NCBI GenBank assembly: GCA_002709955.1
Contig: PAQY01000011.1
Span: 1 to 55,898, forward strand
Length of the DNA stretch: 55,898 nucleotides
Direction: 5' to 3'
From: Rhodospirillaceae bacterium
GTDB taxonomy: Bacteria > Pseudomonadota > Alphaproteobacteria > UBA8366 > Aestuariispiraceae
Part shown: positions 510 to 16,856 of the stretch, one piece after another
How the letters are laid out: the number at the start of each line of letters is the position of its first letter
Numbering within the stretch: position 1 is the first letter of the stretch
Position numbers and translations under genes: made by a program
Notes under the pieces: generated by a model
What the model saw: the letters and a program-made list of their open reading frames with translations, nothing else
Databases searched by the model: none
What the model was told of the DNA's origin: nothing

Positions 510-674
510 GGATTCTGGAATTGGCTCTGAGAGCCGCAGAAAACCTCATGTTTTTTCCAGAATCCAGAATCCAAATTCAGAATCCGGCTGGGTTCTGAAA
601 CCAGCCTCAAACCCTTGGTTTTGTGCGGTTTGACGATCCAGTCAGAATCCAGAATTTTTGGATTCTGGATTCTG
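510..674. repeat. Cluster of GGATTCTGGA/TCCAGAATCC repeats with a 13-bp hairpin
   Basis: The 316 bases between the primase-helicase stop (693) and the resolvase start (376) hold no convincing gene. They hold repeated copies of one word in both orientations: GGATTCTGGAA at 510-520, TCCAGAATCC twice in tandem at 556-572, a variant at 575-587, and a perfect inverted repeat at 643-655 and 662-674 with a 6-base loop. A separate short palindrome, CTCCCCC-TTTA-GGGGGAG, lies near 482-499. The hairpin has no U-tract on either strand, so a simple terminator is unlikely. The position beside a primase-helicase makes an iteron-type origin or a protein-binding array plausible, but this is inference. Confidence 0.6.
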
Positions 675-692
675 AAATCACGAATTCGGGGG

Positions 693-3655: not shown

Positions 3656-4059
3656 CAAAAAGGGACCTCCGTATCTTCGCCCTTGGCCGTGGCCAGCATC
3701 GCGTCTTGAAACCCGCCTACGCAGACTTCAGCGAGGGTGAGAACCTGGGTTTCTGTGAGATCAATCAGGCGGCTTTCCCAGCCGATCTCTTCCATAACCT
3801 CCGCCAACATCTTGACGGCATGACGCAGGGCGGCTTTTTCCTGTTCGGTTAGATCAACCATTCCCAAGCCCTCCTTCGCCAAGCGCGACCAGAAACCCTG
3901 GCAGTCCATGGAGCAAAACCACCGCTGAATACGTGGACGCTTCGATGAATGCCGGTCGAACCAGCCAAAACCACGGGTCGGTCGCCGACAGACGGCACAG
4001 AGCTCCCCGCGCGGATGCCATAACCTCAAACGAGCGGCTGCATTTGATGAAATCACCAT
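3655..4059 (-). CDS. DUF6511-like zinc-ribbon phage protein
   Basis: This is a 134-aa protein with two cysteine pairs near the N-terminus, CAVCRRP and CSMDCQ, spaced as in a small zinc ribbon, and an aromatic segment RGFGWFDR between them. The second half is predicted helical and acidic. It resembles, from memory, the DUF6511 family of prophage proteins next to helicases and nucleases. It sits directly after the SF2 helicase gene (start 4 bases beyond that stop) and overlaps the nuclease gene by one base, so it is co-transcribed and translationally coupled. The function is unknown. Nucleic-acid or protein binding through the zinc ribbon is an inference. Confidence 0.65.
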   Translation of the reverse strand: MVISSNAAARLRLWHPRGELCAVCRRPTRGFGWFDRHSSKRPRIQRWFCSMDCQGFWSRLAKEGLGMVDLTEQEKAALRHAVKMLAEVMEEIGWESRLIDLTETQVLTLAEVCVGGFQDAMLATAKGEDTEVPF

Positions 4060-4062
4060 GGG

Positions 4063-5739
4063 TCATGCCGCCCTCCGGTCATCTTCGGGAGCGTTCAACA
4101 CCAGATTGGTAATTGCGGCTTTGTTGAACTGGAAGGTCAGCAGGGCCGATGCGTGATACCGGGTCAGGCCAAAGTCCTGACGGTACTCGGGCGGCAAGAA
4201 TTGAAGCTGACGGCTGGTGACCGATTGATTGAGCCAAGAGCGAGATTTATGGGCGCTCTCGTCGGTTTCGTTTTCATTCAGCCAATCATCGGCTGCGGCC
4301 AGGCAAATGGTCCGCTCACCCATGGCCAGCAAATGCGATTTGAGCCCTTTGCCACCGCCGACGGCATGCCAGCGGCCTTGGTAAAAGAAAATCCCGCTCC
4401 AGGCGTTGAAGCCATTCGCAACCAGCGCCGCATCATCACCAAAGAGATCGCTCCATTGGAAGCTGGAACGTTTGAGCAGATCCACTTCCGACATGACAAA
4501 GTCAGTGATTGGCTGCTGACCTTCCTTGCCTTCTGATTGGAAGTGATATCCGCACAACGGACATTCCATGACGGCCAAAGGCACATTGGCTGCGCACTCA
4601 GGGCATTCCTTGGTCAAGGCAGGACCGGAGCCCACCTTGCCTTCAAGATTCACATCCTGCTCAAGGCTGCCGTGCAAAAGACTCGAAGTGCCAAAATCCA
4701 GAACGATACAGTCGCTTTTGACGACGCCTGGGTGCTCGCTTGGATCGATGGTGCGCAAGCCCCGACCGACCATCTGGATCATGGTTGACTTGTAAGAGGA
4801 TGGCCTCAGCAGCACGACGCAGCTGGTCGGCGGATGATCCCAGCCTTCCGTCAGCACCGCCACATTGACCAGAACCTGGGTTTCTCCCCACTCATAGGCC
4901 TGTAGCACATCGCGCCGTTCCGCCGCACCCATGTCGCCGTAGACCATGGCGGCTTCAATCCCTTGGGACAGAAAGGCATCGCGCACGTTGCGGGCATGAT
5001 CAACCGTCGAACAGAAGACGACGGTTTGACGGTCTCCGGCTTTTTCGCGCCAGTGCTGAATGACCGCATCCGTGATCGGCGCTTTGTTCATGATGGCGTC
5101 AACAGCCATCATGTCGAAATCATCAACGGTCTTGCGAACCGACTTCAGCGCTTCCTGGGCCCCCACATCGATGACGAAGGTGCGCGGCGGCACCAGATGG
5201 CCCGAGGCAACCAATTCGCCAATGAACACCTGATCGGCGACATTGGAAAAGATCGGACGCAGGCCTTTTTTGTCTCCCCTGTTGGGGGTGGCCGTTACAC
5301 CGAAGATTTTGACGTCCGGGTTTTTGTCCTTTGCCTGATCGATAATCCGGCGGTAGCTGTCGGCAGCTGCGTGATGCGCTTCGTCAATCACCAAAAGCTC
5401 AAGCGCGGGCATGGCAGCCAAGTTGGACTTGCGTGCCAGGGTCGGAACCATGGCAAAGGTGGTCCGCCCCTGCCAGGATTTGGTTTTTGCATCGACAACC
5501 GAAGTGCTGATGCCCGGATTAACCCGGTTGAACTTCGCCTCGTTCTGGCTTGTCAGCTCATCACGATGGGCAAGCACACACGCCTTGACATCGTTGCCTT
5601 TCAGTAGCTGACCGGTCACACCGGCCAGCGCGATGGTTTTGCCAAATCCGGTAGAGGCAACAGCCAGTGTGTTGCCGTGTTCGCCGAGCGCTTGAACACT
5701 GCGCTCGACGAAGGTTTTCTGGCGGGGACGGAGCAACAT
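4063..5739 (-). CDS. SF2 DEAD/DEAH-box helicase with C-terminal zinc finger
   Basis: This 558-aa protein carries superfamily 2 helicase motifs: Walker A STGFGKT near 29-35, DEAH at 119-122, VTATP at 148-152, then EGWDHPP (motif V) and QMVGRGLR (motif VI) near 290-325. After the second RecA domain it has a four-cysteine knuckle, CPEC and CPLC, near 375-395. This layout is common in prophage helicases of the SSL2/RadD-like group. The ATG at 5739 has GGGGAGG 7 bases upstream. It lies in the operon of nuclease, ssDNA-binding and RecA-fold proteins and probably remodels branched DNA or replication forks of the element. Confidence 0.85.
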   Translation of the reverse strand: MLLRPRQKTFVERSVQALGEHGNTLAVASTGFGKTIALAGVTGQLLKGNDVKACVLAHRDELTSQNEAKFNRVNPGISTSVVDAKTKSWQGRTTFAMVPTLARKSNLAAMPALELLVIDEAHHAAADSYRRIIDQAKDKNPDVKIFGVTATPNRGDKKGLRPIFSNVADQVFIGELVASGHLVPPRTFVIDVGAQEALKSVRKTVDDFDMMAVDAIMNKAPITDAVIQHWREKAGDRQTVVFCSTVDHARNVRDAFLSQGIEAAMVYGDMGAAERRDVLQAYEWGETQVLVNVAVLTEGWDHPPTSCVVLLRPSSYKSTMIQMVGRGLRTIDPSEHPGVVKSDCIVLDFGTSSLLHGSLEQDVNLEGKVGSGPALTKECPECAANVPLAVMECPLCGYHFQSEGKEGQQPITDFVMSEVDLLKRSSFQWSDLFGDDAALVANGFNAWSGIFFYQGRWHAVGGGKGLKSHLLAMGERTICLAAADDWLNENETDESAHKSRSWLNQSVTSRQLQFLPPEYRQDFGLTRYHASALLTFQFNKAAITNLVLNAPEDDRRAA

Positions 5740-5751
5740 GACCAGCCTCCC

Positions 5752-6381
5752 CTATTGAGCCCAGGACGGACGATTGGGGTTTGCGGCAGGTTGCGTTTCC
5801 GTGCTGACGTTGGCCGTCGGCTGTGCGGTTGCTGTGGGGGCAGCAGCCGATTGGCTCGGCGTCCAGAGACCGCCGCCAGTCTTAAACGTTTCCCAATCCT
5901 TATTGTTTGGAGCCACCGCAAACCGGATGTCATTTTTTGGATCGCCATTGGCATCCTTGCCAACATCGATCTTGGCCAGGAATTCAATGCCATCCAGATC
6001 CGCAAAACCGTTGATACGGCGGGCAGCCTGCGCTTGAGGGGAATTGTCTTTGTCCGAAAGGCCCCGCGACGAATTCAGAATGCCGCGCACAAAAGACCGG
6101 CCCATGTTGCCCCATTCCGGACCCTTGAGGCTGCGAAGCCCAATCAGGCTCCAGACCTTGCGCTTGGCAGACGGGCCTTCGAGGATGACAAACTCGGCGT
6201 TGAGATAAACCGAGCCGGTCGTATCGTTGTGGGTTGCGTATCCACCCGTCCAACCCTGAGCCGGATCGTCATAACCACCCGGTTTGATGGTCATCCTTAC
6301 CGGCACAATGGTGCCCTTCGGGATCAGGTCGTAGGATGTTTGGGATTCCGCGTCGTTATAGTCGTTCCATGCACCAGTCAT
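5752..6381 (-). CDS. Conserved prophage protein, candidate ssDNA-binding partner of the Sak4-like ATPase
   Basis: This 209-aa protein has a conserved beta-rich core (about residues 18-140, with KGTIVPVRMTI, GSVYLNAEFVI and RKVWSLIGL) and a low-complexity Ala/Pro/Thr/Gln tail (about 160-200) ending in a short tip, PNRPSWAQ. Core plus disordered linker plus terminal tip is the general plan of SSB proteins, though the tip is not the acidic DDDIPF type. It is common in alphaproteobacterial prophages, from memory under hypothetical or DUF669-like names. Its start lies 2 bases after the RecA-fold ATPase gene, with GGAG upstream. Sak4-type recombinases are known to work with an SSB encoded beside them, which supports the proposed role. 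The function remains inferred. Confidence 0.6.
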   Translation of the reverse strand: MTGAWNDYNDAESQTSYDLIPKGTIVPVRMTIKPGGYDDPAQGWTGGYATHNDTTGSVYLNAEFVILEGPSAKRKVWSLIGLRSLKGPEWGNMGRSFVRGILNSSRGLSDKDNSPQAQAARRINGFADLDGIEFLAKIDVGKDANGDPKNDIRFAVAPNNKDWETFKTGGGLWTPSQSAAAPTATAQPTANVSTETQPAANPNRPSWAQ

Positions 6382-6383
6382 AA

Positions 6384-7265
6384 TTACTGTGCTCCTTTGT
6401 CGTCTTCAGTGTTGGGGGTCTCGGCAACTGGTATTGGGCGACTAAAAGTCAGCCTTTCGCCTGCCGGTTTTGCGGGGCCGCCGATCTTTTCCATCAGACG
6501 GCCAAGATGGGGTTCTTCGACCTGATCTAGCCGACCGCTGCGATCCTTGGCCGGAAAGCCGAAGGGGTTCAGGGTGTGGCAAACAAAAGCCCTGTAGGGA
6601 TCGCTGCCGTCGGGACTGACCTCAGCCATGGCGACGACTTCATCCACGATGCCGGGGAGTTCGTTGCCGGTTTTGGAACCGTCGATTTGGGGAACAAAGG
6701 TCTTGCGATTGAAGTCATCAAGCTTCTCGTCGAGGATCCCGACGAACCAGACGTTCTTGTCCCGGGTGTGCTGAAGGTGCGTGAGCCAGGCGATCATCTC
6801 CTGGCCATGCAGGCCGTAAGCGCCGCGCATGTCAGGCTTGCCGGTGCGTTCGGAAACTGCCTGCGGCTGGCCCTTGGCCCACTGGAAACAAAGACGTCCG
6901 GCGACCGTGATGCTGTCGATAAAGACGGTCTGGTATTTATCCAGCGCTTCCGGGTCGCCAAACTGCTCGCACACAGCATCGTAGTGGGCCTGGCTATAGA
7001 CCTGGTCGTCACGCAAGGCCGGGTTTGGACCACCGATGAAGACGGCGAAATCACGGCATTCAATCCAAGTGCGCGGACGAATGGTGTCTCCGGACCAGCC
7101 TTCGATTGCCAGATCTCCTGCCTCCAAATCGAAGAACAAGGTGGACTGGGCATCCAACGTCCAAAGCAGTGAGGTTTTGCCGATACCGGATTTGCCGAAG
7201 ATGCAGCCTTTAATGCCGCGCTGCTCCGACAGCCGTTCATCGGCGGAAATAATGGGGAGCGGCAT
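6384..7265 (-). CDS. AAA_24 phage nucleotide-binding protein, Sak4-like RecA-fold ATPase
   Basis: This 293-aa protein begins with a P-loop, FGKSGIGKTSL, near residues 22-32, then FFDLEAGDLAI, and has a Walker B-like strand TVFIDSITV near 133-141. This is the PF13479-type (AAA_24) phage nucleotide-binding protein, whose studied members (Sak4) are single-strand annealing recombinases resembling a bare RecA core. The ATG at 7265 forms TGATG with the upstream stop and has a G-rich ribosome site. A GTG at 7268 is possible. The next gene downstream is the candidate SSB. It probably drives homologous annealing for element replication or repair. Confidence 0.8.
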   Translation of the reverse strand: MPLPIISADERLSEQRGIKGCIFGKSGIGKTSLLWTLDAQSTLFFDLEAGDLAIEGWSGDTIRPRTWIECRDFAVFIGGPNPALRDDQVYSQAHYDAVCEQFGDPEALDKYQTVFIDSITVAGRLCFQWAKGQPQAVSERTGKPDMRGAYGLHGQEMIAWLTHLQHTRDKNVWFVGILDEKLDDFNRKTFVPQIDGSKTGNELPGIVDEVVAMAEVSPDGSDPYRAFVCHTLNPFGFPAKDRSGRLDQVEEPHLGRLMEKIGGPAKPAGERLTFSRPIPVAETPNTEDDKGAQ

Positions 7266-7561
7266 CACTTACCCCCCTTCTTCGATGCAACCGCATCCAG
7301 GGCAGTGTCTGCACCCAAGGAGCCATTCTTGCGGGCCATGTCGTAGACACGGCGCAGCGCATCGATTTCTCCGTAAAGCGCGGAGGATTTGGCCTGCAAA
7401 GCAAGCTGGGCAAAAGCAATGTCGTCAATAGACGCCGCTTCAATGGGTTTGATCACCTCTTCCTGGCGATCGCCCAACGGCGGGATCCGGATGGTGTCGG
7501 GAAGATCAGTCAGGAAGCAGTTATCTTCGCGCAGTCGTTCGAGTTTGGTCTTGGCGGTCAT
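7265..7561 (-). CDS. Small helical protein of the phage recombination operon
   Basis: This is a 98-aa protein that I do not recognise. The first 40 residues are mixed, then a long amphipathic helix is likely (FAQLALQAKSSALYGEIDALRRVYDMARKNG), ending in a basic SKKGGK tail. It overlaps both neighbours by 4 bases or less (ATGA with the upstream gene, TGATG with the Sak4-like gene), so its translation is coupled to theirs. The tight placement suggests a small accessory factor of the recombinase or replication complex. No catalytic motif is visible. Confidence 0.6.
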   Translation of the reverse strand: MTAKTKLERLREDNCFLTDLPDTIRIPPLGDRQEEVIKPIEAASIDDIAFAQLALQAKSSALYGEIDALRRVYDMARKNGSLGADTALDAVASKKGGK

Positions 7562-8046
7562 GATTGCACCTCATCGTTCAGGGAGAGTTGGTAGGAGGGT
7601 TTGCCGACACGCACGGTCCTTGCGCCCTCGAACGCCGAGCGGATGTGGCTTGGCCAGGCGGCGTATTTGCGTTCGGAAACCTTGATGGTGATGTCGACGT
7701 ATTCAGCCGGGTTATCGCCCTCGGCCTTCATGCGCTCGACCAGCTGAGCCAGCTGGGACTGATCCCAGAAGACCTTCTTGGGAAGATCGGCGACGACTTG
7801 CGCCGGGCCTTCATTGAAACGAACCGTGCCCGTGTCTTTGCCAAGGGCTGCACGGCCTTCCCTCGCCTGAAGGGAAAAGCGGCACTCAAGCGCGCTGTCG
7901 AAACGGTCCTTCATCATCTTCGTGATGGTGAGGCGTTCGGCGATTTCACTTTGCAAGGCGGTCAATTGTTCGACCGGCAGAGAGGCGATATCCGCCACCT
8001 CCATGGCGCTCAGGTAGTCGATTTGGATGCGGTTGGGGATGTTCAT
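7558..8046 (-). CDS. Hypothetical protein of the phage operon
   Basis: This is a 162-aa protein starting MNIPNRIQIDYL at the ATG at 8046, preceded by GAGGGGGA. An open frame continues further upstream to 8214 but overlaps the excisionase-like gene, so the shorter form is chosen. Residues 20-60 are predicted helical (LTALQSEIAERLTITKMMKDRFD), and the C-terminal half contains a segment typical of phage proteins (KVFWDQSQLAQLVERMKAEGDNPAEYVDI, read in two parts) followed by KVSERKYAAWP. It resembles conserved prophage proteins of unknown function in alphaproteobacteria. It overlaps the next gene by ATGA. Confidence 0.65.
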   Translation of the reverse strand: MNIPNRIQIDYLSAMEVADIASLPVEQLTALQSEIAERLTITKMMKDRFDSALECRFSLQAREGRAALGKDTGTVRFNEGPAQVVADLPKKVFWDQSQLAQLVERMKAEGDNPAEYVDITIKVSERKYAAWPSHIRSAFEGARTVRVGKPSYQLSLNDEVQS

Positions 8047-8056
8047 ATCGTCCCCC

Positions 8057-8266
8057 TCACGCATAAAGATCGTTCGGGGTTTCGGTGGTGCTTTTGCAGA
8101 GGTTATCTGCTTCATACGCTTCCACGTCTTCGAGGCGATAAACGACCCGGCCACCGATTTTGAGATACGCGGGTCCTTCGCCGGTCCACCGCCAGCGTTC
8201 AAGCGTCCGTTCACTGATATTCCAGCGATCGGCCAGTTCGATCTGATTGAGATGTTTAATAGCCAT
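8057..8266 (-). CDS. Excisionase-like MerR/HTH_17 DNA-binding protein
   Basis: This 69-aa protein reads HLNQIELADRWNISERTLERWRWTGEGPAYLKIGGRVVYRLEDVEAYEA in short form: a winged helix-turn-helix of the HTH_17/AlpA/excisionase group, with the recognition helix around SERTLERWR and the wing GRVVYR. The ATG at 8266 has a perfect AAGGAGG 5 bases upstream. The longer frame back to 8401 runs through low-complexity sequence and is rejected. It is the first gene of the leftward replication/recombination operon, so it may act as a directionality factor or as an activator of the operon. Confidence 0.75.
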   Translation of the reverse strand: MAIKHLNQIELADRWNISERTLERWRWTGEGPAYLKIGGRVVYRLEDVEAYEADNLCKSTTETPNDLYA

Positions 8267-8440: not shown

Positions 8441-9133
8441 TCAGATATAGGACTCTTCAAGCTCAACTTCGGGCTCGGGTTTACCTGTCCATGTGAAACG
8501 ATACCGGGCGTGTTTACGAACATTGCCAACAAGCGCCGGGCGGAAACAGGCAAGGCAATCGCCACCGGAATGGCGCACACTTGGATATATCACGCCGGGG
8601 GAATCTTCGGCGAGAAGCCGGTCGGCCAATCCTTGAGATGCAACATAGCTGTCAGCGCTCAGGCAATCGGAGAAGTTATCATCTCCTCGGATGTCATGAT
8701 ATTCACCACCGAAGTCAGCTAGATAATCATCATAGGTGACGCTTTCATTCAGCCAGTCGATTTCGGCAAGTTCGAGCGACTTGTGCCAGGCGACCTCGGC
8801 TTGGGATGTTTCTAGTGCAAACCCCGCGTACCATGCACCCCGGTCTGGACCATTAAACCGGCTTCCCAGTGGATGGGCGTGTGTAAATGCTGCATTGATG
8901 ATCCGATAAGATGGAACACTAAATACCAGCTCATCAACACCGATGCCGGGAAGCAGATCATTTTCTGCGAGCAGCCGATCATTTGTGGCGTGATCCAGAT
9001 CGAAGATGCTTTGAAGATGATCGTCATCATCTGCAATGCGAACGAGGACACTGTCCCCGTTCTCACTGTATTTCGAAGGAATCATCCGATGTGTATCGAG
9101 TTGGCGGATCCTGTTTGTTTCGGGAAAGCTCAA
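8441..9133 (-). CDS. RES-domain toxin (NAD+-degrading type)
   Basis: This 230-aa protein starts RIRQLDTHRMIPSKY after a short lead. It then has RFNGPDRGAWYAG near 92-104 and ETSQAEVAWH near 108-117, the Arg, Tyr and Glu signature of the RES fold, and later YPSVRHSGGDCLACFRP near 188-204, which carries the Ser and Arg that name the family. Studied RES toxins (MbcT, ParT, Res) degrade or ADP-ribosylate with NAD+. The start is a TTG at 9133 in a TTGA overlap with the antitoxin stop. It is supported because the conserved RIRQxDTHR segment begins only 7 residues in, leaving no room for the next ATG. Toxin downstream of antitoxin is the usual order. Confidence 0.88.
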   Translation of the reverse strand: MSFPETNRIRQLDTHRMIPSKYSENGDSVLVRIADDDDHLQSIFDLDHATNDRLLAENDLLPGIGVDELVFSVPSYRIINAAFTHAHPLGSRFNGPDRGAWYAGFALETSQAEVAWHKSLELAEIDWLNESVTYDDYLADFGGEYHDIRGDDNFSDCLSADSYVASQGLADRLLAEDSPGVIYPSVRHSGGDCLACFRPALVGNVRKHARYRFTWTGKPEPEVELEESYI

Positions 9134-9567
9134 TGGCCACCCCGCCGCGCGTCAAGAAGCTTTCTGACTGTCGCAAAAGCCGGAAGCCCCCCATGAATTA
9201 AATAGTCGTTGGGGCTCATCCCTCTAAAGATCCTGTTCTTGTTCGGAAGCTGCATCCATTGATCCGCGAGATCTTCGCTGTAAATAATGTTCAGCGCCTT
9301 GAAGATGCCGACCAAATAGGAGATCCGGCGCAGCTTGTCCTCATCCAATGAGCGGTCTCCGTCCTTCTTCAGAGCATAGAAAGCGCCATTGGAAATTCCG
9401 CCAAGCAACTGACGAGCGGCTTCATCGCGGACCTTCCACTGGTCCATAATGTTAAAGAACGCCCGGACTGCCCCTGAGCTCAGCCGATCGCGTTCTGCTC
9501 GATCAGATAGATCGATCAAGGGAGCAACTTCGTGCCGAGTAGCTGGATAAGCGTGAGAAAGAGCCAT
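9130..9567 (-). CDS. Xre/MbcA/ParS-type antitoxin
   Basis: This is a 145-aa protein. The N-terminal two-thirds carry the Xre-like helical domain (AVRAFFNIMDQWKVRDEAARQLLGGISNGAFYALKKD, in parts). The C-terminal third has the MbcA_ParS toxin-binding signature: DEDKLRRISYLVGIFKALNIIY, then WMQLPNKNRIFRGMSPNDYLIHGG. The ATG at 9567 has GGAGG 5 bases upstream. The frame to 9675 is rejected because it runs through the operator. It neutralises the RES toxin and probably represses its own promoter through the TCCA/TGGA palindromes at 9596-9633. Confidence 0.88.
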   Translation of the reverse strand: MALSHAYPATRHEVAPLIDLSDRAERDRLSSGAVRAFFNIMDQWKVRDEAARQLLGGISNGAFYALKKDGDRSLDEDKLRRISYLVGIFKALNIIYSEDLADQWMQLPNKNRIFRGMSPNDYLIHGGLPAFATVRKLLDARRGGH

Positions 9568-9595
9568 GTGAACCTCCATTTCTGGATTCAATATA

Positions 9596-9633
9596 ACTCC
9601 ATTTATGGAGTAAATCAACCTCCAAATATGGAG
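9596..9633. promoter_or_regulatory. Paired palindromic operators of the RES/Xre operon
   Basis: Two palindromes with the same half-site lie just upstream of the antitoxin ATG: ACTCCATTTATGGAGT (9596-9611) and CTCCAAATATGGAG (9620-9633). They sit between the 315-aa gene's stop (9650) and the antitoxin start (9567), where the promoter of the pair must be. Autorepression by Xre-type antitoxins is known for this family. These being its binding sites is inference. Confidence 0.7.
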
Positions 9634-9649
9634 TTGGCGTTTTCGGGTC

Positions 9650-10597
9650 TCAAAGTGAGATCCAGCAACGTCCATTCTTCTCCTGGATAAAATCTCGCCA
9701 ATCTGACCGACCGGAAAAGGCTTTAGCGAGCGTATTCACCGAGGCACCACATTCGGCAGCTTCGAGAACAGCCGCTGTCAGGCATTCGGGCTCGCCGGAT
9801 TTCCAAGCTTGATAGAGATGCCGGATGATAGATCGCTGCTTTGTGCCGGTGAATGGATAAGGCTTGCCATGAACATTGACCGAAGCGCCATCCGCCGTGA
9901 CGACGATAGGTGCATCAGCCGTCAGAGCCCCCGACGAAACCCTGGCCGCCAAGAGATCGGGATCAACTGCCAAACCATCTGCGCAGATCACGTCCTGCAG
10001 GGAAATGATCTCATGCTCTCGATACGTCGGCTCCATCACGCGACCTGGAGTCAGATTGATGACAAGGCGCAAACCAGGGGATGGCCTTGACCGGCCAGCG
10101 TCAGCGAACATCGACCAAACTTCTGGGGCATGGAGACGTCTGGCAATCCAGACCGGGACCCGTTTACCCCTACCCGGCAACCGGACGTCACCCACTTCCC
10201 AGATAAGGCCGCGTACCAATTCTTCCGGGGCCTCGCGCGATGACACATCCAGTGGTGCCAACAGAACTTGGAATAAGTCAGGAAAACAGATTGCATACGC
10301 GGTCAGCTGATCGCCGGACACCGGCACCCATCCAGCCGAAGGGCTGAAATATCCGTAGCCTCTATGCTCCGGCGACCAAGACAGATTGACGGCCTCATCC
10401 TCATGATCGGACAGCGCGACCGCCGCAAGCTGATGGGCGTCTGGACGCAAAATACCCGAAGACTTAAGCGTGTCCGCCGAACGGCCATGAAACCCGTCCA
10501 AGGCCGCACTGGTGATCACCGCGTCTGGCGTCTGCAGGATCGACTGAACCAGTTGGACGTCAGACCGGGAAAACGGAACGACATCAGTCAACATCAT
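9650..10597 (-). CDS. Unknown protein with winged-helix-like C-terminus
   Basis: This is a 315-aa protein that I do not recognise. The first 230 residues are mixed alpha/beta without an obvious catalytic motif. The last 75 residues (from FTGTKQRSIIRHLYQAW through GASVNTLAKAFSGRSDWRDFI to GRCWISL) look like a winged helix-turn-helix ending in a beta strand. It starts within the last bases of the 390-aa gene (overlap 14 bases), so the two are translationally coupled and probably form one functional unit. With the DUF2188 gene they form an operon divergent from the XRE regulator. Confidence 0.6.
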   Translation of the reverse strand: MMLTDVVPFSRSDVQLVQSILQTPDAVITSAALDGFHGRSADTLKSSGILRPDAHQLAAVALSDHEDEAVNLSWSPEHRGYGYFSPSAGWVPVSGDQLTAYAICFPDLFQVLLAPLDVSSREAPEELVRGLIWEVGDVRLPGRGKRVPVWIARRLHAPEVWSMFADAGRSRPSPGLRLVINLTPGRVMEPTYREHEIISLQDVICADGLAVDPDLLAARVSSGALTADAPIVVTADGASVNVHGKPYPFTGTKQRSIIRHLYQAWKSGEPECLTAAVLEAAECGASVNTLAKAFSGRSDWRDFIQEKNGRCWISL

Positions 10598-11756
10598 TCA
10601 AGATGCCCCAACGACGTAGGTACCTCTCACCGATCAACTGTTCTTCTTCCGTCTGGTCCTTCAAATTACAGCCGTGCGGCATGGTGATCGTCAGCGGTAG
10701 TGTCCGCCCACGCTTAGACGAGCCCTTCGGATGAAACTTGATGGTCAACTTGGCTTGGGTCGCGACCCATCCACCAGCCAGCGGGTCGTTCGCGCCGAAC
10801 CGCTCTGCCGACATGCTCCAAATGGTCCGGTCCGCTTTGCGCAGGCATTCCAATGTGACGCGCTCGCCGTTATTGTCGAACGGCATCAGGCGCAACTGCT
10901 TCACCTCGACAGATTCAATGCCGTCATCTGGATCCGTCTGAAACGGGTGTGGGACCAACAGAACGGACAGGTCATAGTTCCGGAGCGGAACCTTCTCGCT
11001 CTGAAACTCAACGCCGAGCAGGTCGCGCGCCATGTACCGCGCCATTTCTTCACGGCTTTCGCGATCATTGGCCACCACCTCGATGACGCCGGTTTCCGGC
11101 TCGTATGTCATCGCCGCTTCAAACACGGGACGACGAGCACGGCGAACCAACTCGCCCACCTCATCGAACGCCAGAAAATCATCTGGGAGCCCCTCACGGT
11201 AAATAACGATCTGTACCAACTCGCAGTCTTCACCGTCGAATGTCGGGCGATGGCGACCAAAAATATCGATGTGAATGTTGTTGGAGGAAAAGCGTTCGCG
11301 TAAAGCCGACTTGAATGCCTCCAAGGCTTCTTCGTCACGCTTCAGGTCCAGATCGGCTGGGGCCATGAATCCATCCCAGCTGCGCCCCCGCCGACGTTCA
11401 TCGGTAAAACGCACTTCTTCAGCGAAACGAAACAATGTGGGCGCATTCAGGAACATCCAGAGCGACCGTGCATGACCGTTGACGAGGTCATCCAAAACGG
11501 TGCGATCTTCCGCGACACTATACAGTGCGGTCTGACCTGCATCGTCCGCGAGGGCACTGACACGTTCGGCGTCGTTAAGCACACGCGCTCGGGCGTCTTC
11601 AGACATTTCATCAACGGCACGTAGCGTGCCCCTAACCACCTCGGGTTCGGCAGCCTCCCAATTGATCGGATTCGGAAGCTCGATACCGGTGTGCTCGAAG
11701 TATGCCTGCAGCGACGACGCAGGCATGTTACGGATAAAAGTCGTCACTGAGGCCAT
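10584..11756 (-). CDS. Unknown protein of the XRE-divergent operon
   Basis: This is a 390-aa soluble protein without a recognised domain. Residues 1-130 are largely helical and acidic. Residues 130-220 contain a strand-rich segment (NNIHIDIFGRHRPTF, CELVQIVIYREGLP). Residues 220-270 (FEAAMTYEPETGVIEVVAND) and 330-375 (AKLTIKFHPKG, LPLTITMPHG) look like beta sandwiches. GGAG precedes the ATG at 11756. It lies between the DUF2188 gene (12 bases upstream) and the 315-aa gene, which overlaps its end. No nuclease, ATPase or protease motif is visible, so the role is open. A partner protein of the 315-aa putative DNA binder is a reasonable guess. Confidence 0.6.
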   Translation of the reverse strand: MASVTTFIRNMPASSLQAYFEHTGIELPNPINWEAAEPEVVRGTLRAVDEMSEDARARVLNDAERVSALADDAGQTALYSVAEDRTVLDDLVNGHARSLWMFLNAPTLFRFAEEVRFTDERRRGRSWDGFMAPADLDLKRDEEALEAFKSALRERFSSNNIHIDIFGRHRPTFDGEDCELVQIVIYREGLPDDFLAFDEVGELVRRARRPVFEAAMTYEPETGVIEVVANDRESREEMARYMARDLLGVEFQSEKVPLRNYDLSVLLVPHPFQTDPDDGIESVEVKQLRLMPFDNNGERVTLECLRKADRTIWSMSAERFGANDPLAGGWVATQAKLTIKFHPKGSSKRGRTLPLTITMPHGCNLKDQTEEEQLIGERYLRRWGILNDVD

Positions 11757-11767
11757 TTGTAATCTCC

Positions 11768-12004
11768 TTAGCCCTTGATGTTGCGCGGGTCGTTCCCGTG
11801 AGAATCGGACTGTGCGATGCGCCCGTCCCGATTATGAATTTTGAATTCTGTTCTGGCGTTGCGGCTGATCTCTCGACCACGATCTACTGCCTCACGCTTA
11901 GTCTCGAAATGTCCGCTGGCGCGATCAGAACCGCCGCGACGGACGTCCCAGCCACCGTTTGAGCTGGGAGTTACATGATGGGTACCGGGTGTACGTTTGG
12001 GCAT
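11768..12004 (-). CDS. DUF2188 domain protein
   Basis: This is a 78-aa protein. The core HVTPSSNGGWDVRRGGSDRASGHFETKREAVDRGREISRN matches the DUF2188 pattern: a short beta hairpin with the GGWDV motif, then a helix with 'F.tk.eAvdrgreia'. The tail TEFKIHNRDGRIAQSDSHGNDPR is typical of members described as small stress or phage-linked proteins. It is the first gene of the leftward trio and is transcribed from the divergent region bearing two GTTCG-N8-CGAAC palindromes. The biochemical role of DUF2188 is unknown. Confidence 0.75.
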   Translation of the reverse strand: MPKRTPGTHHVTPSSNGGWDVRRGGSDRASGHFETKREAVDRGREISRNARTEFKIHNRDGRIAQSDSHGNDPRNIKG

Positions 12005-12032
12005 TTGCCGAATCTCCTATTGGTACGTTTTC

Positions 12033-12100
12033 GTTCGGTATACATCGAACATTTTCGCAATTCTCTTGTCAAGTACCAATTTGTTCGGCATATATCGAAC
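12033..12100. promoter_or_regulatory. Two GTTCG-N8-CGAAC operators in the divergent XRE promoter region
   Basis: The 134 bases between the DUF2188 start (12004) and the XRE start (12139) hold two near-identical palindromes, GTTCGGTATACATCGAAC (12033-12050) and GTTCGGCATATATCGAAC (12083-12100), 50 bases apart. An additional inverted pair, TTGGTAC near 12020 and GTACCAA near 12073, brackets the first. The layout is that of a repressor controlling two divergent promoters. The adjacent XRE protein is the obvious candidate. Confidence 0.75.
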
Positions 12101-12138
12101 ATGGTCGAAAACATGAACGACCGATCCAGGGAGAAGAG

Positions 12139-12459
12139 ATGACAACCTCATTAGGCGAGAAAATCCGCCACCATCGGAAGGAAAAGGGATATTCCCTCGA
12201 TAAGCTGGCCGACATCACAGAATCCAGCAAAAGCTACATGTGGGAACTCGAAAACAGGGAAACCAGAAAACCATCTGCGGAAAAATTGACCCGAATCGCT
12301 CAGGCATTGTCAGTAACAACCGATTACCTGTTAGATGAATCTGCGACCCCCGACGAGAAGGTTCTCCAGGAAGCCTTCTTCAGAAAGTTCAGCAAGCTTG
12401 AGGATGAGGACAAAAAGAAGATCGAACAGATGATCGATATGTGGGGGAAGAAAGCTTGA
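12139..12459 (+). CDS. XRE-family transcriptional regulator (cI/ImmR-like)
   Basis: This 106-aa protein has a classic lambda-repressor-like helix-turn-helix: LGEKIRHHRKEKGYSLDKLADITESSKSYMWELENRE, in parts (residues 5-42), followed by KPSAEKLTRIAQALSVTTDYLL. The acidic C-terminal helix FRKFSKLEDEDKKKIEQMIDMW is the region usually contacted and cleaved by ImmA partners. The ATG at 12139 follows GGGAGAAGAG. The ImmA-type protease gene overlaps its end. It probably binds the two GTTCG palindromes upstream and represses the DUF2188 operon and itself. Confidence 0.85.
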   Translation: MTTSLGEKIRHHRKEKGYSLDKLADITESSKSYMWELENRETRKPSAEKLTRIAQALSVTTDYLLDESATPDEKVLQEAFFRKFSKLEDEDKKKIEQMIDMWGKKA

Positions 12460-13370
12460 ACCTGCCGAATACGCCTGAGAAATGGGCGATCCACCTTAGC
12501 AAGCTGATCAAGCTATTTCATGAAGCCCACGGATTGGACCGCTTTCCAATCAACGTGGCCGATATCGCTCGGGATTATTCTAAACAGGTTTTCCCGGATG
12601 CCCCCATCACCATGATTGAAGGAATGGATCTCTCTCGCAAATTCGAAGGCGCGATGCTCCCGCACCCGAGCGGTAATGGCGAATGGGGTATCATCTACAA
12701 TAAAAGCATCGAATCAAAAGGCCGCATCAACTTTACCCTCGCCCACGAGCTTGGACACTATCTACTTCATCGCGAGCACTCAGTTGAGGGACTCAGGTGC
12801 AGCAGCCGCGACATGCACAAATGGAATTCCGAGTACGGACAGATCGAGGCTCAAGCAAACACCTTCGCGTCATATTTGCTGATGCCCCTGGACGATTTCC
12901 GTGATCAAGTCGCGAGCAATGCAATTAATCTTGATCTCATGTCCCATCTGGCAGACCGCTATGACGTCTCCCTGACCGCGACCATTCTCAAATGGTTAGG
13001 AATGACTCACAAGCGGGCGATGATTGTCGTCGGCAAAGAAGGTTTCATTGATTGGGCTTGGAGTAGCGAGCCGCTAATAAAGTCAGGGATCTTTTATCGA
13101 GCACGTCAGGAAGTCACTCCCCTTCCTGTTTTATCCCTGGCGGCGAAGCAGGACATGCTAATTGATAATCGTACAGGGACCTTGCATCCGAAAGGCGTTT
13201 GGCTCGGCGAAGAAGACGTTCGGGAATTGACGATTTTTTCTGATCAAAACCGCTTGTCTATCTCCCTCCTCATTTATCCAGATGATGCCCCTGGGAAGTG
13301 GGATCAGGATTTTGACGAGCCGACCGAACGGGACACATACGAACAGTTTGTCATCGGAGGCCAAGTATGA
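12456..13370 (+). CDS. ImmA/IrrE-family zinc metallopeptidase
   Basis: This is a protein of about 304 aa with the gluzincin motif HELGHYLLH near residues 97-105 and the downstream acidic helix EAQANTFASYLLMP (about 132-146) that carries the third zinc ligand, the hallmark of ImmA/IrrE proteases. Known members cleave their partner XRE repressor when the element is induced. The long C-terminal half (150-304) is unrecognised and larger than in minimal ImmA proteins. A TTG at 12456 overlaps the XRE stop as TTGA and has GGGGAAG upstream; a GTG at 12441 is the alternative. The downstream gene overlaps by ATGA. Confidence 0.85.
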   Translation: MNLPNTPEKWAIHLSKLIKLFHEAHGLDRFPINVADIARDYSKQVFPDAPITMIEGMDLSRKFEGAMLPHPSGNGEWGIIYNKSIESKGRINFTLAHELGHYLLHREHSVEGLRCSSRDMHKWNSEYGQIEAQANTFASYLLMPLDDFRDQVASNAINLDLMSHLADRYDVSLTATILKWLGMTHKRAMIVVGKEGFIDWAWSSEPLIKSGIFYRARQEVTPLPVLSLAAKQDMLIDNRTGTLHPKGVWLGEEDVRELTIFSDQNRLSISLLIYPDDAPGKWDQDFDEPTERDTYEQFVIGGQV

Positions 13371-13867
13371 AGCCGGGCCTCTTAGCCGCAGCATCGGCTT
13401 TATCAGACCTAGATCTTCTTCAGCAACACGCCGATGCATTAAAAGAACTAAGGCGAAGAGGAACGATCCGCACATCCAACAATCCTGTCGGCGATTATGC
13501 AGAAACGTTATTTTGCCGTGCCTTCGGGTGGGACCAAGCCACGAATTCTGAAAAGGATGCCGACGCAATTGGCACCGATGGCACTAAGTACCAGATTAAG
13601 GCTCGTAGACTTACCCAGCACAATGCCTCTCGCCAACTTGGCGCTCTTCGGAGACTTCCCGACAAAAATTTCGACATACTTGCCGCCGTGCTGTTCAACG
13701 AAAACTTTTCTGTCATGCGGGCGGCTCTGATCCCTCATTCCTTGGCAGCTGAAAGGGCCTCATACGTAAAAGCGACCAATAGCTGGCGATTCCTTATGAC
13801 CGATGACATCTGGTCTTGTGAAGGCGTGGTCGATGTAACCGATAAAATAGAAGAAGCTGCAAAGTAA
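13367..13867 (+). CDS. DUF6998-like small restriction-endonuclease-fold protein
   Basis: This is a 166-aa protein. Residues 38-95 carry NPVGDYAETLFCRAFG, SEKDADAIGTDG and KYQIKARR, an E ... D ... QxK series that fits the PD-(D/E)XK fold with Gln in place of the usual second acidic residue. This matches, from memory, DUF6998-type proteins sometimes annotated as restriction-endonuclease-like. It is translationally coupled to the metallopeptidase gene (ATGA at 13367-13370). Nuclease activity is inferred from motifs. A DNA-binding remnant without catalysis is possible. Confidence 0.65.
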   Translation: MKPGLLAAASALSDLDLLQQHADALKELRRRGTIRTSNNPVGDYAETLFCRAFGWDQATNSEKDADAIGTDGTKYQIKARRLTQHNASRQLGALRRLPDKNFDILAAVLFNENFSVMRAALIPHSLAAERASYVKATNSWRFLMTDDIWSCEGVVDVTDKIEEAAK

Positions 13868-13890
13868 GTGTGATGATTGGATCAAAACAT

Positions 13891-13920
13891 CACCGCGAAG
13901 ACTCTGATGGTTTCGCGGTG
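13891..13920. terminator. Hairpin between the nuclease-like gene and the helicase gene
   Basis: CACCGCGAA (13891-13899) and TTCGCGGTG (13912-13920) form a 9-bp stem with a 12-base loop, 24 bases after the stop of the small nuclease-like gene. No U-tract follows directly; a run of six Ts lies 27 bases further on. It may terminate or stabilise the XRE-ImmA-nuclease transcript, leaving the helicase gene partly independent. Confidence 0.45.
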
Positions 13921-13969
13921 TTACGCAGGGACTAAGGGTGGACTAATTTTTTATTGAGGGGGATTTCTA

Positions 13970-16687
13970 ATGGAAAAAACAAATAAAGATGCGGTTCTTG
14001 CCGATATTTCTCGGGATTCCCTTGAATGCATCGAAAATGTCGCCAAAGAAGCGGAACAAGCTCGCAGCGAACACCGAGGCGGAGAAGCTAGTTCTTTTGC
14101 AAGTATCAACACCTTCACAAGCCAGCAGCAAGTTCGTAATCTCGGTAGCATCGCCGACACTAAGATGCAGCAGTTGAGCGCCCTTATTGAGCAGCCTGTT
14201 ATCGCGCGTGTCCATTTTACAGATGAGGACGGCAAAGAAGACACGATCTTCATTACCCGCAGCACACCCAGATCCGTTCCTGGATTTAAGATAGCAAGCT
14301 ACAGAGCTCCTCTTGGTCGTATTGCATCTTTGGCGGCGGGTGACGAAGGAACATTTCCTCATGCCGGCATTAACCAAGACCTTCTAATTGAAAGCACAGC
14401 TCGACTAAACCCAAAACGTGAATCTGGGCTTTGGGACTCGTTCAACACAGAAATCGACATTAGAGAGCTCGGTCGCTTCACCGTTGGCTCTCTTCGCGCA
14501 ATTCTTGAGCCGCAAGTAGAAATTGATGAGGGTGAACTTGAATCTCTATGGGAGGACGAGGGCGAAGAAAATATTGTCTCTGGATTGCGCCGAGCAATCC
14601 TTACCCATATGGGTCTTCGCGATCAACCTATTTTGGATCGACATCAAGACGAAGTTTTCCGTATGCCGATCAATAGCCAGTGCTTTCTTTCTGGCCCGCC
14701 GGGAACAGGCAAAACCACAACGTTAATTCGTAGGTTAGGTCAAAAGACAGACAGCCTCGCTCTGGAGGAATCCGATGGAGAAGCCAGGATGGTGCGCCAA
14801 GTTGAAGGTGATACAGGGCGATCGCACATATCGAGCTGGATCCTTTTCTCCCCTACTGAGCTTCTACGACAGTATGTAAAAGAGGCCTTTGCCAAGGAGG
14901 GCCTAGCTGCCTCAGACGAACACATTCGCACGTGGGAAGATTATCGCCGTGAATTGGCTCGAGATCATCTGGGCCTTCTTCGCACCGGTGCAGGCACCGG
15001 CCCATTCGTAGAAAGATCGAATGAAGATCATTTACATCCTAACACAATTGAGGATGCGGCATGGCATGATGACTTCCGCGCCCACCTTGATGAAACTAAT
15101 GCTCATGAGCTTGCCCTTGATTCAGAATGGCTTTTGAAATGCGATTCTGCTGAGTTGCAAGCCATGGGTGATAGCCTTCTCCAGATTCTCAATTCGGCAA
15201 AGCGGAATTTTTATGCCCATACGCTCAAAGGTGTATCCGAGCTAATTCCAGAAATCCGTGATGCTATCTCTGTACGGACCACGGCCATCGACCGGATACT
15301 CACCCGCACGCGAAATACCATTACCTATTCTGACCGAGATTTTCCCGACCTTCTTCGAGAACAGATTTCACGTCAATTAGCATCCGAATCTCCGGAAGTG
15401 GAAGATGAAGAAGATATCGACGCAGCACTGGACGATGACGAGGCACGGGCCTCTGAACCACAAGCTGGGCGGCCTGTAAATCGACAACAAGCCCTCTCTA
15501 GGTTTGAGCGCTCGCTTAAGGCCCTGGCCAAAGCGAAAGCACGAAAGCGTCAAGTATCGGAAAAATCACAGGATGGAATGCTGCTTGCTTGGCTGGGGCC
15601 AAAGAGAATTCCCTCGGATGAGGACTTAACTACGCTCGGCAAGCTAATCGAAGAGCAGGGACGTCTGCGTAAATTCGAAAGGCTGGAGCGGCTTTTCTTG
15701 AGAAGTATTTCACAAAAATACAAACGTTTCCGCATTGATAGAACCAAAGAAAACCGCTGGTATCAATCGGCACCGACAAAACCATCAGACATCCACTGGA
15801 AGGAGCTGGACCTTCTTGTACTATCGACGCTGCAAATAGCAAATGAGCTCCTTTCTACCTATCGGAAGCAGTCGGGAGAAGACTTGCCTTCAACCGGTCC
15901 TCTTTCTGTAATTCGTTATCTCCAGCGGGCTCAAATCCTTGTCGATGAAGCGACTGATTTCTCACGGGTTCAGCTCGCATCAATGTTTGAACTCGCTCAC
16001 CCGTTAATCAGGTCATTTTTCATGTGTGGGGACGTCAATCAGCGATTAACGTCTTGGGGTATTAAGTCCAATGAAGCGCTTGATTGGCTAAACACCCCTA
16101 TTCAACGAAAATCAATTACGGTTTCTTATCGTCAGAGCCGCCGCCTCGTTGAACTCGCAAAAGATGTCGCAAAGCTTGGAGGAGCACATGCTGAAGATAT
16201 CGTTTTACCGGATCGTCTTGATGCTGAAGGCGTGACTCCTGTTTGGCAACATGGTCTGGAAAATTACTCAGACACAGCAAAATGGCTAACTCACCGAATC
16301 CAGGAAATAGACCAGATCGTACAAAAAGGAACGACAATCGCCATACTGGTTAACACAGAAGCGCAAGTCGAACCGCTGGCCACTGAATTAAATGTTCATC
16401 TTGAGGAAATCAATTTGTCTGCAGTCGCCTGCAAGGACGGGATGGTAGTTGGGAATGATCGAGATGTACGAGTATTTAACCTCAGGCACATCAAGGGCCT
16501 AGAATTTGAAGCAGTATTTTTCATCGACCTAGATGAAACGATCGATAATCACCCGGATCTGTTTTCAAAATATCTTTACGTTGGGGCAACGCGCGCGGCG
16601 ACATATTTAGGTATTACATTCCATGGCGACACACCAGGCTTGATGGCTCCCCTTTCATCACACTTTGGAAGCCATTGGCAGCTATAA
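13970..16687 (+). CDS. UvrD/Rep-family helicase-like ATPase
   Basis: This 905-aa protein has superfamily 1 motifs: Walker A SGPPGTGKTTTLIRR near 241-252, DEATDF (Walker B) near 658, GDVNQRL near 688, SYRQSRR near 716, KGLEFEAVFFIDLDE near 847-860 and YVGATRA near 876-882. The first 240 residues are unrelated to core UvrD. About 400 residues are inserted between motifs I and II, including a strongly acidic stretch near 480-500. This is the plan of the 'ATP-binding domain' UvrD_C_2 proteins found in defence and mobile islands. Its codon use and AT-richness look different from the photolyase and cbb3 genes. It follows a nuclease-like gene and precedes the tRNA scar. A role in defence or element processing is inferred. 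Confidence 0.82.
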   Translation: MEKTNKDAVLADISRDSLECIENVAKEAEQARSEHRGGEASSFASINTFTSQQQVRNLGSIADTKMQQLSALIEQPVIARVHFTDEDGKEDTIFITRSTPRSVPGFKIASYRAPLGRIASLAAGDEGTFPHAGINQDLLIESTARLNPKRESGLWDSFNTEIDIRELGRFTVGSLRAILEPQVEIDEGELESLWEDEGEENIVSGLRRAILTHMGLRDQPILDRHQDEVFRMPINSQCFLSGPPGTGKTTTLIRRLGQKTDSLALEESDGEARMVRQVEGDTGRSHISSWILFSPTELLRQYVKEAFAKEGLAASDEHIRTWEDYRRELARDHLGLLRTGAGTGPFVERSNEDHLHPNTIEDAAWHDDFRAHLDETNAHELALDSEWLLKCDSAELQAMGDSLLQILNSAKRNFYAHTLKGVSELIPEIRDAISVRTTAIDRILTRTRNTITYSDRDFPDLLREQISRQLASESPEVEDEEDIDAALDDDEARASEPQAGRPVNRQQALSRFERSLKALAKAKARKRQVSEKSQDGMLLAWLGPKRIPSDEDLTTLGKLIEEQGRLRKFERLERLFLRSISQKYKRFRIDRTKENRWYQSAPTKPSDIHWKELDLLVLSTLQIANELLSTYRKQSGEDLPSTGPLSVIRYLQRAQILVDEATDFSRVQLASMFELAHPLIRSFFMCGDVNQRLTSWGIKSNEALDWLNTPIQRKSITVSYRQSRRLVELAKDVAKLGGAHAEDIVLPDRLDAEGVTPVWQHGLENYSDTAKWLTHRIQEIDQIVQKGTTIAILVNTEAQVEPLATELNVHLEEINLSAVACKDGMVVGNDRDVRVFNLRHIKGLEFEAVFFIDLDETIDNHPDLFSKYLYVGATRAATYLGITFHGDTPGLMAPLSSHFGSHWQL

Positions 16688-16811: not shown

Positions 16812-16856
16812 TGGTTGCGGGAGTAGGATTTGAACCTACGACCTTCAGGTTATGAG
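16812..16856 (-). other. 3' half of an initiator-type tRNA-Met(CAT) gene, integration-site scar
   Basis: On the minus strand the 45 bases run from the anticodon loop CTCATAA through the variable loop AGGTC, the T arm GTAGG-TTCAAAT-CCTAC and the 3' acceptor strand TCCCGCA to A-CCA. The AGGTCGTAGGTTCAAATCC core and CCCGCAACCA end resemble initiator tRNA-fMet. The 5' half, including D arm and 5' acceptor strand, is absent: at 16857 the sequence becomes unrelated. A break at the anticodon loop with the 3' part kept is the usual footprint of a tyrosine integrase that uses a tRNA gene as att site. Confidence 0.85.

Follow-up and report, generated by a model that had tools for sequence, protein, structure and literature searches.

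In the locus analyzed here we recognize a prophage immunity region, which is seated at a tRNA-Met scar and carries additional genes as cargo. It lies within a 55,898 nt stretch of DNA from a Rhodospirillaceae bacterium, the whole of which is referred to below as the window. We consider it probable that a prophage has integrated in a tRNA-Met gene and that the locus is the end at which its immunity genes and its cargo are located. A regulatory switch known from CBASS faces prophage early genes at this locus and heads an operon with a restriction enzyme. The genes named in a preliminary description of this DNA, namely those for a repressor, a protease, a small nuclease and a large helicase-like protein, opposite a DUF2188 gene and two further genes, are all present.

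Prophage setting and attachment scar

The prophage reading follows from the tRNA-Met scar, from the early phage genes at the left of the window and from the recurrence of p390, p315 and capH-capP in viral contigs. The scar, anticipated in the preliminary description, is the 3' half of a tRNA-Met(CAT) gene (positions 16812–16856, minus strand), which matches the intact tRNA-Met of contig 23 at 44 of its 45 bases; it is the attachment-site scar at the right end of the prophage. At the left, the list of open reading frames includes phage early replication and recombination genes (615–8214, minus strand), which, as read from these frames, we take to encode primase-like, Cas4-like exonuclease, helicase, DUF669-like and Sak4-like proteins. 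Similar genes are found in conserved order, as compared by eye, in prophage L072 of genome G301. Of the prophage, the contig carries the right end alone; no integrase was recognized within the window, and no phage genes that could represent the other half were recognized by eye on contigs 7, 21 and 23. The window also contains a RES toxin with an Xre/MbcA antitoxin (8441–9675, minus strand; Pfam RES, 1.1e-27; Xre-like-HTH, 1.5e-6), and such a pair is likewise located 3' of p315 in loci L035, L038 and L050.

The leftward arm of the locus consists of three genes on the minus strand, encoding a DUF2188 protein (11768–12004; assigned by Pfam and by PADLOC, as candidate PDC-S16), p390 (10584–11756; 390 aa; phrog_37634, 8.7e-88) and p315 (9650–10597; 315 aa). 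The latter two genes, which overlap by 14 bp, are situated to the left of the interval 11768–16687 that the preliminary description delimited. All three belong to the early gene set of a phage family that is widespread. Homologues of p390 are present in 36 viral contigs, p315 is retained in 36 of these 36 loci, and, among the 27 loci with sufficient room, DUF2188 is found in 25 and capH-capP in 23. For p315 itself, there was no family match, with PHROG yielding only 0.06, and nothing useful was obtained by searching a phage collection with p390 and p315, or plasmids with p315. RdgC- or CENP-N-like folds were considered for p390 and p315 but not supported: the Foldseek likeness was weak (TM 0.2–0.4; for the p390 model, to CENP-N/L and RdgC), and the profiles of both proteins, whether aligned to E. 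coli RdgC or to one another, scored below the best of 30 shuffles. The RdgC family was found in 0 of 58 genomes of the class.

A CapH/CapP-type switch between two divergent operons

The repressor and its cognate protease, as the pair had been described, match CapH and CapP. The XRE repressor (12139–12459, plus strand; 106 aa) was identified as CapH by PADLOC (3.3e-32) and by structure 7t5u over the helix-turn-helix (HTH) domain (4.9e-20); the 166-aa frame listed for it, from a TTG at 11959, has an over-long start. The ImmA metallopeptidase (12441–13370, plus strand) was identified as CapP by PADLOC (9.3e-70) and by structure 7t5t (8.9e-67; 228 bits), with residues 11–283 of 309 aligned. The peptidase has a C-terminal domain, a HELGH motif at 102 and a single cysteine, Cys 120, that aligns with a cysteine of 7t5t, and Pfam confirms the HTH of the repressor and the Peptidase_M78 domain of its partner. 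Thus, near full-length homology of the protease, the HExxH motif, the aligned cysteine, the HTH repressor and the position of the regulator genes at the head of an operon are all shared with the CapH/CapP pairs (7t5t, 7t5u) that regulate CBASS and further immune operons. The difference is that here the switch also faces a phage early operon, which CapH should repress, and that the cargo is a BisI-family nuclease and perhaps a HelD-like ATPase.

The window contains two copies of the sequence GTTCGNNNTANATCGAAC, each of them within the 134-bp intergenic region, with 0 occurrences expected from 100 shuffles. Operator 1 (12033–12050) covers the putative leftward −10 element and operator 2 (12083–12100) the putative rightward one. 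Between them lies CTTGTCAAG (12065–12073), in which the putative −35 elements of both divergent promoters overlap and which is conserved between phages. Similar operator boxes are present in the related phages L039 and L043, alongside CapH proteins that are 77–83% identical. The proposal that both arms share operators is borne out by these data and, because the two operators flank the shared −35 region and recur in two related phages, co-release of the two arms is supported as well.

Bound to both operators, CapH would hold down the leftward early operon (DUF2188-p390-p315 and the recombination and replication genes) and would also repress its own rightward operon, capH-capP-nuclease, possibly through to the ATPase gene. 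In other CapH/CapP pairs, CapP activated by single-stranded DNA has been reported to cleave CapH (PMC13373217). By analogy, DNA damage that exposes single-stranded DNA would activate CapP at this locus, and the resulting cleavage of CapH would release both arms, inducing the phage and raising the expression of the cargo.

A BisI-family nuclease directly downstream of capP

The first cargo gene (13367–13867, plus strand; 166 aa) overlaps capP by 4 bp. Its product, noted previously as a small PD-(D/E)XK-like protein, belongs to the BisI family of modification-dependent restriction endonucleases, as judged from its sequence. The homology to Eco15I (8q5m, 7.5e-33) and NhoI (8q5n, 7.3e-22) spans the whole domain, the PADLOC match is mREase_II (7.2e-56), and the conserved Asp, the QXK motif and the helix Glu of the PD-(D/E)XK domain are aligned, with AD from residue 65 and QIK from 76, as in the catalytic motif described for Eco15I (PMC11347163). 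Compared with Eco15I, NhoI and EcoBLMcrX, the nuclease differs in being prophage-borne and in the overlap of its gene with capP. If its specificity follows that of the family, it would cut incoming phage DNA containing 5-methyl- or hydroxymethylcytosine at GCNGC-type sites. A search of the phage collection with the nuclease returned nothing useful.

In some related prophages, the cargo next to capP is McrBC, GmrSD, Lit, SIR2-Argonaute or Abi_C, in part touching capP, and most of the related prophages examined have no recognized defense gene adjoining capP. Prophages of the P2/P4 type harbor defense hotspots, in which defense cargo is similarly exchangeable at a fixed place; here, in contrast, that place is directly 3' of capP in an immunity region of the CapH/CapP type.

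The 905-aa ATPase is closer to HelD than to UvrD

The second cargo gene (13970–16687, plus strand) encodes an SF1 ATPase of 905 aa, with a coiled coil and a Gre-like region in residues 1–215, Walker A at 242, a long helical insertion, DEATD at 659 and KGLEFEAV at 842. The N-terminus had been called unusual, and indeed Walker A begins only at residue 242. It had been described as a UvrD-type helicase, but the comparisons place it closer to HelD, the motor that clears RNA polymerase, than to either UvrD or GajB, the N-terminal region included. In a Foldseek search of the PDB, the best seven matches were all HelD (3.9e-19 to 2.1e-14), with UvrD at 3.7e-11; profile matches were 4.1e-15 and 2.4e-11 for HelD and 2.1e-7 for UvrD; and the profile-profile alignment with HelD extended over 651 columns (E 1.3e-17). 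The N-terminal region alone scored 37.7 against HelD, compared with at most 18.8 among 100 column shuffles; this alignment covers 87 columns, with an hhalign probability of 68%, and the predicted coiled coil (helices 3–34 and 52–74) is outside the aligned columns. To our knowledge, an N-terminal region of this kind is absent from UvrD and PcrA.

The order of parts is that of HelD from B. subtilis (6wvk) and M. smegmatis (6yxu): coiled coil, Gre-like globular region, domain 1A, long helical insertion, 1B and domain 2. The differences are a longer insertion, a shorter coiled coil, the lack of the DWR motif and the occurrence in Pseudomonadota, beside defense genes. At the place of DWR, which has been called absolutely conserved in HelD (PMC8655204), the ATPase has SYR, within SYRAP at 110–114. 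The predicted coiled coil does not reach the length of the HelD pike (residues 4–96; PMC7749165), and its conserved tip is not acidic; the NCBIfam HelD model scored 44 bits, with a cut-off of 419. Gram-negative RNA polymerase has inserts, which were thought to hinder HelD (PMC8655204). The ATPase may nevertheless bind RNA polymerase, in which case it would reach into the enzyme with its Gre-like N-terminal coiled coil and, at the expense of ATP, displace the enzyme from DNA, so that foreign DNA would be left untranscribed or cleared.

Alternatively, the 905-aa protein could be a UvrD-type DNA helicase that feeds a nuclease, in a Gabija-like manner or with Mre11-Rad50, rather than an RNA polymerase motor; this is a real possibility, although not the probable one. 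UvrD_C_2 exceeds the Pfam cut-off, UvrD structures match as well, and close relatives of the ATPase are encoded directly 3' of Mre11-Rad50-like genes at six loci in three clusters; no Rad50-like gene was seen elsewhere in the genome, in a search that is not proof of absence. On the other hand, HelD is the better match in both structure and sequence, the N-terminal regions align, and there was no match to GajA, with its OLD-type ATPase and TOPRIM domains, among the nine window proteins scanned. The best GajB match (2.6e-8, 30.6 bits) covered only part of the ATPase.

The resemblance to Gabija, as previously suggested, is limited to a nuclease gene upstream of an SF1 ATPase gene: the nuclease is of the BisI family and not OLD/TOPRIM, the ATPase has a long N-terminal region and resembles HelD more closely than it does UvrD or GajB, and the pair was not found together elsewhere. 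In particular, the flanking sequences retrieved for 102 ATPase loci contained no nuclease homologue.

Recurrence of the genes as a unit or singly

The preliminary description had proposed an undescribed system formed by all these genes and had named independent occurrence, or a standard prophage immunity region, as outcomes that would speak against it. Such an outcome was found for the DUF2188-p390-p315 arm, because this arm is part of the early region of a widespread family of phages, whereas another part of the proposal stands: related prophages (L082, L084, L090 and L170) also carry the ATPase on their att side, and its family is linked to defense. That all seven genes constitute a single multi-gene defense system, as the shared operators and gene overlaps might suggest, is very improbable and largely contradicted by the recurrence data. 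Among the 36 viral p390 loci, the ATPase was found in none (only 10 of them extend at least 4 kb beyond capP) and the nuclease in one (19 had room); among 385 genomes of the class, the ATPase and p390 co-occur only in the genome of the window; and the p390 arm accompanies phage replication genes.

The evidence is evenly balanced on whether the locus is an ordinary prophage immunity region, with CapH and CapP as phage repressor and protease, in which the nuclease and the ATPase were acquired singly and act, if at all, independently. This explanation is partly compatible with the prophage reading that we favor, and the probabilities of the two do not sum to one. The early operon and the switch recur without the nuclease and ATPase cargo, the ATPase occurs without the other genes of the locus in many replicons, and the nuclease and ATPase genes are separated by a gap of 102 bp, in which the ATPase gene may have its own promoter; no hairpin stood out between the two genes (z −0.5). 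No observation spoke against the two cargo genes being independent. By contrast, the defense genes on the capP side of several related prophages and the defense link of the ATPase family argue against unrelated cargo.

Defense links of the ATPase family

Members of the ATPase family are found near named defense modules, BREX included, in 42 of 79 clusters (six modules tested, without a matched control), and inside BREX loci. The remaining 37 clusters contain none of the six modules, and PADLOC matches adjoin some of them. At the present locus, BrxC, PglX and PglZ had no match in the nine window proteins scanned, and single-protein scans for the ATPase in the genome and viral contigs, as well as a search of the phage collection, yielded nothing useful. 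No description of the family was found in the open-access literature searched, and neither HelD nor UvrD occurs as a whole word in the main text of PMC12839542 (0 occurrences each).

Tentatively, and with more doubt than confidence, we propose that proteobacterial anti-phage loci widely share, as a mobile component, a HelD-type motor that clears RNA polymerase. It would be located in BREX operons between brxC and pglX, in HKD-SNF2/type III restriction-modification operons, downstream of Mre11-Rad50, next to GmrSD and Dnd-like genes, and at the CapH/CapP-controlled cargo site of the prophage family, and would halt transcription of invading DNA or strip RNA polymerase off for partner enzymes. 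The type 3 BREX helicase has been compared, in a survey of BREX from January 2026, with RapA, which also recycles RNA polymerase (PMC12839542); if BREX contained a second motor of this kind, unrelated to the first, transcription would therefore emerge as a shared target. If the HelD reading is correct, bacteria would use an RNA-polymerase-removing motor in phage defense, and for proteins annotated only as 'ATP-binding domain-containing protein' there would be a role to test, in BREX as well as in several further systems.

A prophage immunity region with two cargo genes

The locus is a prophage immunity region, in which a CapH/CapP-type switch is accompanied by two cargo genes, one encoding a known kind of restriction enzyme and the other a HelD-like motor. 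On the plus strand, the XRE repressor gene (12139-12459) overlaps the gene of the ImmA-type protease (12441-13370) by 19 bp, the latter overlaps the gene of a 166-aa nuclease (13367-13867) by 4 bp, and the gene of a 905-aa SF1 ATPase (13970-16687) follows 102 bp past the nuclease gene. The minus strand carries DUF2188 (11768-12004) and the phage early genes p390 (10584-11756) and p315 (9650-10597), encoding proteins of 390 and 315 aa. A RES/Xre toxin-antitoxin pair (8441-9675, minus strand; also present in the related loci L035, L038 and L050) lies inside this early operon, and to its left further phage early genes extend on the same strand to about base 615. A partial tRNA-Met(CAT) gene, its 3' half, lies at 16812-16856 and matches the intact gene on contig 23 in 44 of 45 bases; to the right of it the gene list, read by eye, continues with photolyase-like host genes. 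Because the contig starts at base 1 of the window, inside the prophage early region, the remainder of the prophage lies off this contig; no integrase was recognised within the window.

The preliminary description of a regulator with its cognate protease was confirmed. Residues 11-283 of the protease align with the solved CapP 7t5t (8.9e-67), with HELGH and Cys 120, presumably the inhibitory switch, both kept, and the repressor matches PADLOC capH (3.3e-32) and 7t5u (4.9e-20). According to PMC13373217, ssDNA activates CapP, which cleaves CapH. Two 18-bp operators lie on either side of CTTGTCAAG, which can be read as possible overlapping -35 elements of both promoters, with modest promoter matches of 8 and 9 bases out of 12. 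Both operator boxes and the centre are retained in L039 and L043 (CapH 83% and 77% identical), and in more distant loci inspection by eye showed a box of related sequence, GTTCG...CGAAC, together with TGTCAAG, the order being unchanged. The retention in L039 and L043 of operators around a putative shared -35 supports, at the level of sequence, the earlier idea that both arms would be released jointly.

Related capH-capP pairs were also seen beside CD-NTase-like genes in L196 and L197, next to another phage-like region with DUF2188 in L194, and beside an SNF2 gene in L190, all these labels being by eye except for blast matches. L190 (2700-7793) encodes the closest CapP in the class search (74%), after which an SNF2-type gene and another gene occupy the cargo position.

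The divergent arm belongs to a phage family

The DUF2188, p390 and p315 arm is part of a phage family. A p390 scan of viral contigs yielded 36 loci, all of which contain p315 (tblastn, as for the following counts). Nine of them begin too near p390 to reveal the preceding genes; among the 27 informative loci, DUF2188 is present in 25, and both capH and capP face the operon in 23, the pair not being found by tblastn in L046, L050, L052 and L055. Recurrence of the whole set as one unit had been proposed as a check, and it was not seen in these loci: the nuclease was found in one of the 36 (L036), 19 of which hold at least 0.6 kb beyond capP, and the ATPase in none, only 10 holding at least 4 kb there, and the absences refer to those 19 and 10 loci. 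The nuclease also occurs in the same-genus genome G301 (L072). In a sample of 385 genomes of the class, four had the ATPase and eight had p390, the window's own genome being the only one with both; CapP was found at 1e-20 in 11, three of them with p390 (G000, G301 and G042). A weak likeness of the predicted p390 fold to kinetochore CENP-N/L and RdgC was unconfirmed by profiles.

A BisI-family nuclease at a cargo site beside capP

The nuclease is a member of the BisI family, matching Eco15I (7.5e-33), NhoI (7.3e-22) and PADLOC mREase_II (7.2e-56), and it contains the AD...QIK motif described for Eco15I in PMC11347163. The same paper describes BisI-class enzymes as cutting multiply methylated or hydroxymethylated GCNGC, a specificity that is putative here. 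The capP-side ORFs were listed in 18 related viral loci, and ten proteins from seven of these were scanned. The scans identified a Lit-type peptidase adjoining the BisI gene in L036, a McrC-type protein together with its AAA partner in L049, a GmrSD enzyme in L054 (its gene shares 4 bp with capP), an Abi_C protein in L058, SIR2 with a short Argonaute in L061, and a serine integrase with a DUF2924 gene in L053; one scanned protein of L035 was left without identification. From their sequence starts alone, L057 resembles L049 and L067 resembles L058, and no defence gene was recognised by eye in the remaining loci. Thus, a minority of the loci (7/18, including the two judged from sequence starts) have defence genes next to capP, often ones for modification-dependent restriction.

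The ATPase is HelD-like

The earlier label of a UvrD-type helicase holds for the Pfam family, UvrD_C_2, but HelD is nearer in both model and profile. The best seven PDB matches of an AlphaFold2 model (61 sequences, pLDDT 83.5) are seven HelD chains (3.9e-19 to 2.1e-14), followed by AddA (1.5e-12) and UvrD (3.7e-11), and the family profile matches HelD of M. smegmatis (4.1e-15) and B. subtilis (2.4e-11) ahead of UvrD (2.1e-7). A profile-profile alignment against seven proteins from plasmids, of which six carry the annotation HelD and one, from Hymenobacter, UvrD-helicase although it has the DWR motif, spanned 651 columns (63-891 to 82-766, E 1.3e-17) with a score of 155, versus 21 for the reversed control. 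The N-terminal region alone scored 37.7 over 87 columns (probability 68%), whereas 100 column shuffles reached at most 18.8, the reversed control 10.3, and four comparisons with p390 and p315 10-18. The aligned columns correspond to the Gre-like globular portion, and a coiled coil predicted in the ATPase falls outside the alignment. UvrD and PcrA are not known to have this N-terminal region.

PMC7749165 describes HelD as running from a Gre-like N-terminal region through domain 1A, a helical bumper and 1B to domain 2, and the model of the ATPase has its parts in that order. However, the DWR motif, "absolutely conserved" in HelD according to PMC8655204, reads SYR in the ATPase, whose score also falls well short of the NCBIfam cut-off for HelD; the protein is therefore named HelD-like rather than HelD. 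RNA polymerase may be its target, a best guess from homology to which we give slightly less than an even chance.

The ATPase recurs among defence genes

Altogether, 102 ATPase loci were collected, forming 79 clusters at 90% identity: 80 of 200 kept from a genome scan, nine from viral contigs, ten from plasmids, and three from the class search besides the window. In 42 of the 79 clusters, the fetched flanks contain one or more of six named modules, namely HKD-SNF2 (16), DUF262/GmrSD (14), type III RM (10), BREX (8), Mre11-Rad50 (6) and DUF4007/PAPS (Dnd-like; 6); as the modules were picked after viewing the neighbours and without a matched control, 42/79 is an association and not an enrichment test. 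None of the six was seen in the other 37 clusters, partly owing to short flanks, and PADLOC, run on 73 of their 122 listed neighbours, returned 63 families, including BrxC, BrxHI, LmuB, NsnB and PD-Lambda-5. In 12 BREX loci of four clusters (L094-L098, L103, L104, L108, L113, L115, L164 and L165), the ATPase gene lies about 9-45 bp after brxC and ahead of pglX. No description of a defence association of a HelD-like motor was found in the open-access literature searched. A recurring operon (L003:4078-16921 and similar) has the order WYL, HKD/SNF2, DUF4391, HelD-like ATPase, type III methylase and type III restriction subunit.

In the closest ATPase clade (at least 55% identity), Mre11-Rad50-like genes are present in 7 of 11 loci, directly upstream in six, and the Mre11-like/Rad50-like/ATPase group is a candidate for a cassette of its own. 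Three genomes of this clade with Mre11-Rad50 (L082, L084 and L090) also contain p390 and p315, as does, together with the ATPase, the viral contig L170, whose layout is that of L084 and which perhaps stems from the same genome; a tRNA-Met lies downstream in L082 and L090. Thus, the ATPase recurs at the attachment-site (att) side of this prophage family, with a partner differing from that in the window. The Mre11-like and Rad50-like genes were seen directly upstream of the ATPase in L082 (5243-12718), L083, L084, L090 and L077; in L082 and L083 two DUF262 genes follow. L148 (9518-11734) carries an apparently broken HelD-like gene near a Rad50-like gene.
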